A DNA stretch of 64,000 nt. It comes from an uncultured Acidobacteriota bacterium. GTDB taxonomy: Bacteria; Acidobacteriota; Vicinamibacteria; Fen-336. The notes under the pieces were generated by a model. The model was given only the letters and a program-made list of their open reading frames with translations. It did no database searches and was not told the origin of the DNA. The position numbers and the translations under genes were made by a program. The stretch covers positions 1 through 64,000 of the forward strand of contig CADEEV010000022.1 of assembly GCA_902826455.1 (NCBI GenBank). The letters run 5' to 3'. This document shows, piece after piece, positions 60,820 to 63,957 of this stretch; the stretch's first letter is position 1; each line of letters begins with the position of its first letter.

Positions 60820-61461
60820 TCAGCGTTCGAGGTAGCTCTCGAGGGCCTTTTCGGCCGCGTCCGTGTCGAAGCCGAAAGGGCCCATGCCGCCCTTGTAGAC
60901 GACCTTGCCGCCCGGAGCGAGGACGTAGAGCCGCTCCGGCCAGGCGGCGAACGCGGCGTCGAACGCGTTGTCGAGGCCGTCGACGGCCAGCGGCACCCGG
61001 TAGTGAAACGCGTCGAGGAGGACCTTCGCCAGGGTCTTGCGCTCGTCGAACGTCTTCGGCTGGTCGAAGACGAGCTGCTCCGCGCGGTTCGAGTCGAGCT
61101 GCCACTCGTCGTCGGGATGGGCCTCGGCGATGTAGACAGTGAGGAACTCGGCCCGGGCCCTGTGCTGGTCGTAGATGCGGTGAAGATCGCCGATCTTCTT
61201 GCGGAACGGCGGTCAGGTGCAGCTCCCGAAGATCAGGAAGACGGGCTTCGTCTGCCAGAGCTTCGAGAGGCTCGTCGCCGTTCCGTCGAACATGGTGACC
61301 GGCAGGTCGGGAGCGGCGGCGCCAACCCTGAGGCTGCCGCGCTCGCGGCGATCCCACTTGTTGTAGCGGAAGACGCCGGCCTTCACGAGCTTCATGTAGG
61401 CGAAGAAGCCGAGGCCCCCCAGGGCCGCGACGGCCAACGCAAGGATCGCGTACATCAGCAT
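60820..61461 (-). CDS. deiodinase-family thioredoxin-fold selenoprotein (in-frame TGA = Sec83)
   Basis: The frame starts at an ATG (61461, or 61455 with better Shine-Dalgarno spacing from GGAG) and reads a membrane helix (residues 4-22). It then reads a thioredoxin-fold lead (VGAAAPDLPVTMFDGTATSL, PVFLIFGSCT), one TGA at 61215-61213, and continues without another stop for 130 codons. Post-TGA sequence matches iodothyronine deiodinases: PPFR, EFLTVYIAEAHPDDEW (His115), LDNAF...ERLYVL and YKGGMGPFGFD. Deiodinases have SCT-Sec-PPF at this point. Total length is 213 residues. It is likely a membrane-anchored selenol redox enzyme; actual dehalogenation is not implied by the fold alone. It is last in an operon after a halogenase-like gene. 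Confidence 0.93.
61182..61212 (-). promoter_or_regulatory. bacterial SECIS element following the Sec codon
   Basis: Fourteen nt after the UGA, the mRNA forms a perfect 7-bp stem, GAAGAUC / GAUCUUC (61198-61192 with 61188-61182), capped by a GGC loop. The apical loop starts 22 nt after UGA with G as its first base. That fits the bacterial SECIS consensus (stem of several pairs, small loop, G in the first two loop positions, loop about 16-37 nt from UGA). Confidence 0.78.
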
Positions 61462-61474
61462 GAGCTCCGGCAGT

Positions 61475-62977
61475 CTACACCGCGGCCGAAAAGCCGCAGC
61501 GCTCGAGCAGGCCGTGGAGCTCGGGCTCGCTCGCGCCGAGGCGCTCCCTGGCCGCGAGGAGATCGTCCGCACGCACCGGGTACCAGTCGCGTCGGCTGCG
61601 ATCGCCGAGTCCCGCGACGTCGAAGGGCGCGATCGCCCGGTCGATGCGCGCTTCGATCCTCGCGCCGCGCTCGCCGTCCAGGATCGCCTCGGCGATCGCC
61701 GCGCTGTCGGGACCGAAGCTCGCGTGACGGCACAGCAGGAAGCCGGGCGCCAGCGCGGGGCGGCCGAGCCGACGCGCGGCCTCGCTGAAGCTGGCCGCCG
61801 CGAAGTAGAGCAGGCTCAGGCGCTTGAAGAGCGCGAAGTGGCCCATCGTGGCGTACAGGGCGGCCACCAGCCGCTCGGTCGCGTCGAGCTCGGCCTGGGT
61901 GTCGTCGGCATAGGCCGCGAGGCTTTCGGCCGACGGCGTGCCGTCCTTCTCGAACGCCGCCGCGAGACGCTGGATCCCGAGCAGCGTCAGGGGAAAGCCC
62001 GTGGACAGGAGCGGGTCGATGACGCCGGCGGCCGACGGCAGCAGCGCGAAGCGGTCGCCGTGGACGTGTGCGCTGCGGAACGCGAGCCGGGGCGAGTGCA
62101 CGAACGGCGTCACGGCTTTCGCCGTCGCGAACTGCGCCTCGACCGCGGGCAGCGATCGCAGCAACCCGGCCCAGTCCGCTGGCGTGTCGGCCTTCAGGCC
62201 CGCGCCGGCGCTCGTGAGGCCGTTGGCGAAGCGCAAAACCCAGATCCACCCGCCGTCGAACACGTGGTGCAAGGCCGCGTCGTCCACGGGATAGGGTGGC
62301 GCGCCGTCGCCCGGGACGAGAGCGTCCCAGCGCTCGACGCCTTCGAAGTGCGCGTAGAGCGCCTGGGTCGGGGGCAGCCAGCGGAAGGCTCGCTCCCCGA
62401 GTCCGAGGCGCCGGTGCAGGAAGCCGCGGGGTCCGGTCGCGTCCACGACGAACGCGGCATCGACGGTGACGGCGGCCGCCGTGAGGCGCGCGCCTCCCGG
62501 CGTCCATTCGAGGTCCGTGATCTCGGTGCCCTCGAGGTGCGTCGCCCCGGCGCTCACGGCCTCGTTCGCGAGGAACTGGTCGACGTCGGGGCGGTACCAG
62601 TGGGTGTCGCCGATCGCGTCGTGGGGACTCGCGGCGACGAGCAGCTGCCGCGCGTGCTCCGGGTCCGGCCGCCACGGCTCGCCGTCGCCGTGACGAAGGA
62701 AGCTGAACCCGCGCTTCAAGCCGACACCGAGCTCCGGGTACGCCGCGCGCCACGTGCCCCACTTCGACAGGGGCCGGATCCGCGGCAGGTCGTAGCGGTC
62801 CGCCAGCTCCTCCAGCAGCAGGTTCGCGAGGGGCGTCGAGGACTCCCCGATCGCGAAGCGCGGGTGGCGGCCGCGCTCGATCAGCACGACCGAGCGGCCC
62901 AGGCGACGCAGCACGAGCGCCAGCAGCGAGCCGCTGAAGCCGGAGCCGAGGATGGCGACGTCGGCCTTCAGCCGCAT
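61475..62977 (-). CDS. flavin-dependent oxidoreductase, tryptophan-halogenase-like
   Basis: This 500-residue protein has an N-terminal FAD motif GSGFSG (G11, G13, G16) and a halogenase-like FAIGESSTP (44-46). Lys88 in GVGLKRGFSF aligns with the catalytic lysine region (FKxGIRF) of flavin halogenases, and GGWIWVLRF resembles the halogenase WxWxIP motif with Pro replaced by Arg. A second FAD segment reads LLPSAAGVIDPLLSTGFPL. Halogenase, dehalogenase and simple monooxygenase activities are all possible. The gene overlaps the radical SAM stop by 10 nt and precedes the selenoprotein gene by 13 nt, so the three are one operon. Confidence 0.8.
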   Translation of the reverse strand: MRLKADVAILGSGFSGSLLALVLRRLGRSVVLIERGRHPRFAIGESSTPLANLLLEELADRYDLPRIRPLSKWGTWRAAYPELGVGLKRGFSFLRHGDGEPWRPDPEHARQLLVAASPHDAIGDTHWYRPDVDQFLANEAVSAGATHLEGTEITDLEWTPGGARLTAAAVTVDAAFVVDATGPRGFLHRRLGLGERAFRWLPPTQALYAHFEGVERWDALVPGDGAPPYPVDDAALHHVFDGGWIWVLRFANGLTSAGAGLKADTPADWAGLLRSLPAVEAQFATAKAVTPFVHSPRLAFRSAHVHGDRFALLPSAAGVIDPLLSTGFPLTLLGIQRLAAAFEKDGTPSAESLAAYADDTQAELDATERLVAALYATMGHFALFKRLSLLYFAAASFSEAARRLGRPALAPGFLLCRHASFGPDSAAIAEAILDGERGARIEARIDRAIAPFDVAGLGDRSRRDWYPVRADDLLAARERLGASEPELHGLLERCGFSAAV

Positions 62978-63957
62978 GCCGTGCACCGGATGGCTGGCAG
63001 GACGCGCTGCTCCAGGTTCATGGCATGGAGCCGGGTCCGCCGTGCGTCGAGGCACGCCGTGCAGTCCGAGAACGCCGCGAGGTCCCACAGGTCCGCGAAC
63101 ACGCGGCCGCGCGGCTCCGGCAGCGCGGCCGCCAGGGCCTGTTCGAGATCGCGCAGCCGCGGCGCACGGAACTGCCCCTGCGCGTGGAGAGCGTCGAGCG
63201 CGCCGTTGCCGAGACGCGTCGGCACGAGGGACACGACCGAGATGCCGCACTCGAACGCGAAGGCGATCGACCGGCGCAGCCATTCCGCCTCTTCGTCCCG
63301 GGCCACGAAGGGCGGCGGTACGAGGAGAAACGCGCGGACGCTGGCGCCGTACGCCGAGAGGCGGGCCGAGGCCGCCGCGAACTGGTCGAGCGTCATGCGC
63401 TTGTGCAGGCGCTCGAGGGCCTCGGGGTGCGCCGTCTCCAGGCCCATCGCCACTTCCAGGGAGACCGGCCCCAGGGCGTCGCGCCAGCGCTCGACGCGCT
63501 CGCCCACGAGCGCCGGGTGCGATTCGACGACGACCTGCTCGAAGCGCTGCAGCCGGGATGCGAGCGGGCCGTAGTCCTCGAGAGGAACGGCCTGGAGGTC
63601 GAAGAAGCTGCCGGCGTTGTAGAGCTTGATCCGCGATGGCAGAGCGCCTTCGCGGTCGAGCGGCCCGAGGGCCAGGTCCAGCTGGCGCACGAGGGACCCC
63701 GGCGCCGTGGGCTCCTCGAGGGTGTGGAGCCACAGGTCGCACATCACGCAGCGCCAGGGACACTCGGCGCCGGTGAGGAACACGGTCGCGACGCGGGCGA
63801 TCGCCCCGCTCTCGCTGCGCTCCTCCTCGACGACCACACCGCCCGGCCGATCGGGATCGTGGCGTGGCCGCGGCGGACGCCGCTCCAGGACGAAGCGGTC
63901 GCGCTCGCGAGGCGTCGCGGGCCACGGCCCGCTCAGGAGCTCAGGCGTAGAGCGCAA
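62968..63957 (-). CDS. radical SAM enzyme with C-terminal cysteine pairs
   Basis: This is a 329-residue protein. The radical SAM CxxxCxxC is C66, C70 and C73 in ECPWRCVMCDLW. Downstream features are IKLYNAGSFFD, VVVESHPALVGERV, and SLEVAMGLETAHPEALERLHKRMT, which recall Elp3/RaSEA-type radical SAM proteins. The C-terminus has two CTAC pairs (SDCTACLD ... RCTACG) that could hold zinc or an auxiliary cluster. The start is taken as TTG 63957, overlapping the upstream gene by 17 nt. The substrate is unknown. Operon position links it to the halogenase-like and selenoprotein genes. Confidence 0.82.
   Translation of the reverse strand: MRSTPELLSGPWPATPRERDRFVLERRPPRPRHDPDRPGGVVVEEERSESGAIARVATVFLTGAECPWRCVMCDLWLHTLEEPTAPGSLVRQLDLALGPLDREGALPSRIKLYNAGSFFDLQAVPLEDYGPLASRLQRFEQVVVESHPALVGERVERWRDALGPVSLEVAMGLETAHPEALERLHKRMTLDQFAAASARLSAYGASVRAFLLVPPPFVARDEEAEWLRRSIAFAFECGISVVSLVPTRLGNGALDALHAQGQFRAPRLRDLEQALAAALPEPRGRVFADLWDLAAFSDCTACLDARRTRLHAMNLEQRVLPAIRCTACG

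Follow-up and report, generated by a model that had tools for sequence, protein, structure and literature searches.

The question raised by this locus is whether a single TGA inside an otherwise open frame is read as selenocysteine (Sec) in a bacterial member of the iodothyronine deiodinase family, or whether it is a real stop, a mutation or a fault of the assembly. The gene lies on the minus strand of a 64,000-nt window (the whole stretch of DNA that was analysed) from an uncultured Acidobacteriota bacterium. Its frame runs from 61461 to 60820 and comprises 213 sense-or-Sec codons followed by a terminal TGA stop (60822–60820); the sole internal stop is the TGA at 61215–61213, which corresponds to residue 83 (U83) within the motif GSCT-U-PPF. 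The first-pass annotation had described an open frame broken by one TGA at these positions, and translation bears this out. It had also warned that standard gene finding would report a truncated protein of 82 residues, and with translation table 11 the frame does end at 61215–61213. Standard annotation would split the gene in two in many Acidobacteriota genomes. A putative Shine-Dalgarno-like GGAG, proposed from the sequence, is found on the same strand at 61465–61468, 3 nt from the ATG at 61461 and 9 nt from a further ATG at 61455. Because of the better spacing, translation may start at the latter codon (residue 3) instead of the former.

If the TGA is read through, the resulting protein of 213 residues matches the Pfam family PF00837 (T4_deiodinase) with an E-value of 4.6e-32 and 111.7 bits, above the cut-off of 27. 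Compared by sequence with solved structures, it matches mouse DIO3 (1.7e-24) and DIO2 (2e-17). Both alignments run through the TGA codon with homology on its two sides, in agreement with the earlier proposal that GSCT-[TGA]-PPF is the deiodinase active-site signature. In addition, residues 45–207 give a partial match to the NCBIfam model NF038285 ('deiodinase family protein', 347 positions) with an E-value of 8.5e-48 and a score of 163.6 bits, which lies under the curated cut-off of 250.

The family was then followed through a phylum sample of 396 genomes, 28 of which have a match, with 30 homologous matches in all. One in-frame TGA stands at the active-site column in 22 of the 30, and the other eight have Cys at this column and no TGA; the 22 TGA-bearing genomes are spread over the phylum. 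In the genomes G218 and G234 the Sec form and the Cys form of the family are both present. Relatives in a second collection, among them a Deltaproteobacteria record assigned to Myxococcota, likewise possess TGA at the active-site column. Within the same order two further genomes carry the TGA form, one of them apparently identical to L024, and one Cys form is fused to an apparent TPR-repeat protein. L078 (same family) and L045 are likewise long TPR-like repeat proteins that carry a Cys-form deiodinase domain C-terminally.

Over 32 aligned sequences the Sec/Cys site, Y110, E113, H115 and G185 are invariant, and four of these positions lie after the TGA. Furthermore, conservation in the homologue alignment is higher after the TGA than before it, the opposite of the unconserved downstream region which the first-pass annotation had named as possible counter-evidence. 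Apart from the Sec/Cys site, the family has no conserved Cys. A standard gene finder would give the 82-residue stop product, and the TGA would be a true stop if this product were the functional protein. However, such a stop would sever the thioredoxin fold after its first half, and the part left untranslated keeps Y110, E113, H115 and G185 throughout the 32 sequences, which makes this explanation highly improbable.

Bacterial SECIS elements are coding-region hairpins just after the UGA with a small loop containing a G (PMC1088965). On the minus strand at 61182–61198, 18–34 nt from the U of the UGA, the sequence GAAGATC-GGC-GATCTTC forms a 7-bp stem with a 3-nt loop beginning with G, and fits this description in its position and its small G-containing loop. 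For each homologue the 29-base segment that starts at +10 after the UGA was compared with 500 synonymous recodings that used the codon usage of the gene itself and left the protein fixed. This segment folds into a hairpin in all 26 Sec homologues examined, with a mean z of −2.16 versus −0.04 for control segments elsewhere in these genes. All 26 lie below their respective controls (Wilcoxon p 3e-8), and p 0.05 is reached individually by 15; the gene of this genome has a z of −4.34 (p 0.006 versus synonymous recodings). Within its clade the stem is kept and the loop varies between GGC, GGT and GTG, and in L025 one A-U pair of the stem is changed on both sides to G-C and thereby compensated. In other branches the stem letters differ, and the loop, which often contains GGU, lies about 4 nt nearer to the UGA. 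A plain dinucleotide shuffle of the 51 nt around the UGA gave a weak signal (z −1.1) and is superseded by the codon-preserving test. When a longer segment of this gene (48 nt) is folded, the hairpin is rivalled by an alternative that is about equally or more stable, and an Rfam scan of the 64,000-nt window returned no match. Since the hairpin matches the expected bacterial SECIS element, recoding of the UGA to Sec is very likely.

The first-pass annotation had also proposed a look for the selenocysteine machinery, and all components sought were found in the genome: tRNA-Sec (70 bits; anticodon TCA according to ARAGORN), selA (525 bits), selD (360 bits) and selB (290 bits). The selB match stops at profile position 370 of 581, close to where its contig ends, and a different contig holds a C-terminal piece; the gene is apparently split between the end of G000:C36 and the start of G000:C97. 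Across the phylum sample selA occurs in 19 of the 22 genomes with the Sec form versus 232 of 374 others (Fisher p 0.02), which lends modest support because selA is common in the phylum. Each of the three Sec-form genomes lacking a selA match has a high-scoring tRNA-Sec. G333, with the Sec form and tRNA-Sec, shows no selA match at E 1e-60 though it is 97% complete, and this may be an assembly gap. A second selenoprotein candidate of the present genome (L083, G000:C1:297641-297928, minus strand) is peroxiredoxin-like and has one TGA read through in FLRHFG-U-MFCRE, a UxxC arrangement. At least one copy of the formate dehydrogenase alpha subunit in this genome (L079, on G000:C71) is a Cys form, with the sequence CARVCHSPT.

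Taken from one assembly, a lone TGA might be a nonsense mutation in a Cys protein or a TGC or TGT read wrongly, but this explanation is hardly tenable in view of the same TGA column in 22 genomes from across the phylum, the more conserved part after the TGA, the hairpin under selection beside it and the Sec apparatus of the genome. Sequencing error in particular, raised already by the first-pass annotation, is excluded in practice by the TGA at the same column in 22 of the 30 matches and Cys in the other eight. On account of the conserved TGA column, together with the invariant residues and the higher conservation after it, error, pseudogene and true stop are all rejected. The locus can be regarded with high confidence as a genuine deiodinase-family selenoprotein, a judgement that covers Sec and family membership and leaves the substrate aside.

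An AlphaFold model calculated with the 32-sequence alignment (pLDDT 91.5, pTM 0.85) consists of an N-terminal helix, residues 2–27, and a thioredoxin-type domain. The helix, encoded at 61381–61458 on the minus strand, is also indicated by hydropathy and is a predicted membrane anchor. The earlier statement that it matches the animal enzymes goes beyond this prediction: likeness in sequence is undetectable, and homology starts near residue 44. An analysis of charge-bias topology gave no common picture for the N-terminus, as the relatives disagree and some have signal-peptide-like or lipobox-like N-termini. The latter are found in the Cys forms L048, L053 and L055 and the former in the Sec forms L046 and L047, which suggests that part of the family works outside the cytoplasm. 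A Foldseek search ranked 9h48 (DIO2) and 4tr3 (DIO3) first and second among solved structures, with TM-scores by target of 0.83 for DIO2 and 0.77 for DIO3, followed by ResA and 1-Cys peroxiredoxins.

The proton relay of DIO2 is composed of Ser127, Thr129, Tyr157, Glu160, His162 and His182 (PMC11592359). Five of these six residues are kept (S80, T82, Y110, E113 and H115), and the His182 position is taken by P135. In DIO3 numbering the Ser, Thr169, Sec170, Pro171-Pro172-Phe173, Tyr197, Glu200, His202, Trp207, Glu259-Arg260 and the GGxGP turn are all kept; deiodinase landmarks after the TGA had been noticed already on first inspection. Other positions are changed: DIO3 His219 corresponds to Pro135, the basic clamp for the substrate carboxylate (DIO3 Arg275, DIO2 Lys241) to Met193, and DIO3 Cys239, a Cys with a resolving role, to Val156. 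At the position of the shielding Phe of DIO2 and DIO3 (DIO3 Phe258) stands Pro175, and DIO1 has Pro here as well. The Cys two residues before the Sec (Cys81) is common to DIO3, and other branches have Tyr, Phe, His or Ile. The Myxococcota record L029 keeps the His219 equivalent (QHRS).

In the mechanism proposed here, SelB with Sec-tRNA would bind the hairpin and the ribosome would insert Sec at the UGA instead of stopping. The product would be a thioredoxin/peroxiredoxin-fold domain held by the N-terminal membrane anchor. Its U83 selenolate, activated by the network of Ser80, Thr82, Tyr110, Glu113 and His115, would attack an electrophilic atom of a small substrate. Re-reduction would be left to external thiols, and in this subclade alone Cys81 may take part in it. 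The family has no second conserved Cys, and the simplest reading by analogy is therefore a mechanism with a lone Sec, as in the 1-Cys peroxiredoxins. Our best guess is that the selenoenzyme is anchored in the membrane, is recycled by thiols and reduces a peroxide-like substrate; a lipid or small hydroperoxide as substrate, the first choice, is a guess with about an even chance of being right. A redox function other than that of the animal enzymes was assigned to the bacterial members by the authors of the 2005 study (PMC1088965).

The second choice, again a guess and to be taken as possible though unlikely, is reductive dehalogenation of a non-thyronine halo-aromatic. An equally tentative form of it sees the protein as a reductive dehalogenase or deiodinase that acts on a halo-aromatic of bacterial or environmental origin and is paired with an FAD-dependent oxidoreductase of the Trp_halogenase superfamily (PF04820, E 8.2e-15). 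The flavoprotein gene is located at 61475–62980 on the minus strand, with a putative start near 62980. Its end 13 nt upstream of the selenoprotein gene on the same strand favours this pairing, as do the Sec site, TUPPF and the Glu, His and Trp of the DIO pocket, which are kept. The two genes are probably co-transcribed. However, a flavoprotein homologue beside the deiodinase-family gene was found in none of 20 other loci compared, and the protein has lost the carboxylate clamp and one His of the relay. Moreover, the flavoprotein reads WIWVLR, whereas classical tryptophan halogenases have the motif WxWxIP.

The flavoprotein gene is overlapped by a radical-SAM-like gene (62968–63957, minus) with the motif CPWRCVMC and no Pfam match, and judging from their arrangement the radical-SAM-like, flavoprotein and selenoprotein genes possibly form one transcript in this genome only. 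A conserved operon uniting the selenoprotein gene with the FAD halogenase-superfamily gene and the radical-SAM-like gene upstream was considered and rejected; as it is absent from the 20 other loci, no functional link with the upstream genes is claimed. Recurrent neighbour families at the compared loci were restricted to close-relative pairs and antisense shadows of the gene itself. It seems improbable that the Sec-dominated TUPPF lineage in Acidobacteriota dehalogenates a natural halogenated metabolite and is coupled here to a flavin halogenase-type enzyme. If this were true, deiodinase chemistry would have arisen in bacteria before animal thyroid signalling.

Some other reduction of disulphide or sulphoxide type is a third guess and an unlikely one. 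Very unlikely, finally, is a true thyroid-hormone deiodinase: family membership and the kept active-site core speak for it, but DIO3 His219 has become Pro135, Arg275 (DIO2 Lys241) Met193 and Cys239 Val156. Thyronines as substrates are disfavoured because the carboxylate clamp and one histidine of the relay have been lost, and they are also not expected in these bacteria, as has likewise been argued before (PMC1088965). Judged by the aligned residues, 'deiodinase' is to be taken as a family name that does not imply thyroid-hormone deiodination, since the protein lacks one His of the relay as well as the Arg/Lys clamp and a Cys at DIO3 position 239. The reading preferred here remains the thiol-recycled selenoenzyme with a peroxide-like substrate.

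In animals the deiodinases act as gatekeepers for thyroid hormone, and the origin of their selenium chemistry is at issue. A tree of 35 sequences needs three changes between Sec and Cys forms, and a branch with 96/96 support separates the mouse DIOs, together with most Sec forms, from the rest. The order on their side of the branch is without resolution and the root is set by midpoint only, so no claim is made as to which bacterial branch is nearest to the animals. The analysis yields a set of about 20 bacterial members that contain Sec, are placed taxonomically, have a Sec apparatus and each possess a SECIS-like hairpin, as well as a structural model of high confidence and an inventory of the active-site residues that are kept or lost. 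With these three, the chemistry that preceded thyroid hormone is now open to direct assay.

Bacterial deiodinase-like selenoproteins as such are known. They were predicted from marine metagenomes, in the Sargasso Sea in 2005 (PMC1088965) and in GOS in 2008 (PMC2398784), and later tables from 2022 and 2026 list them with the motif UxxC, still without tested function (PMC9312934, PMC13188914). This agrees with the first-pass remark that such proteins are predicted and barely characterised. No report of the present branch in Acidobacteriota was found in the open-access literature, to which the search was confined. What is added here, as far as sequences can tell, is a Sec-dominated Acidobacteriota branch with codon-level SECIS evidence. 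With the known bacterial proteins it shares PF00837, Sec at the deiodinase position, a SECIS straight after the UGA and Cys homologues. However, in place of the tabulated UxxC it has the animal-like TUPPF without a Cys at +3; all Sec relatives found read TUPPF (TUPPY or TUAPY in one branch), and UxxC occurs in none of them. The earlier cases were marine, whereas the present branch comprises Acidobacteriota and one Deltaproteobacteria/Myxococcota record. The thioredoxin fold is shared with the ResA-like thiol-disulphide oxidoreductases and the 1-Cys peroxiredoxins AhpE and LsfA, but ResA possesses a CxxC motif and the protein described here a lone Sec with no family-conserved resolving Cys. Animal DIO2 and DIO3 (PDB 9h48, 4tr3), the best solved matches by both sequence and fold, have S-x-T-U-P-P-F in common with it; their SECIS is located in the 3' UTR, whereas here it lies within the coding frame.
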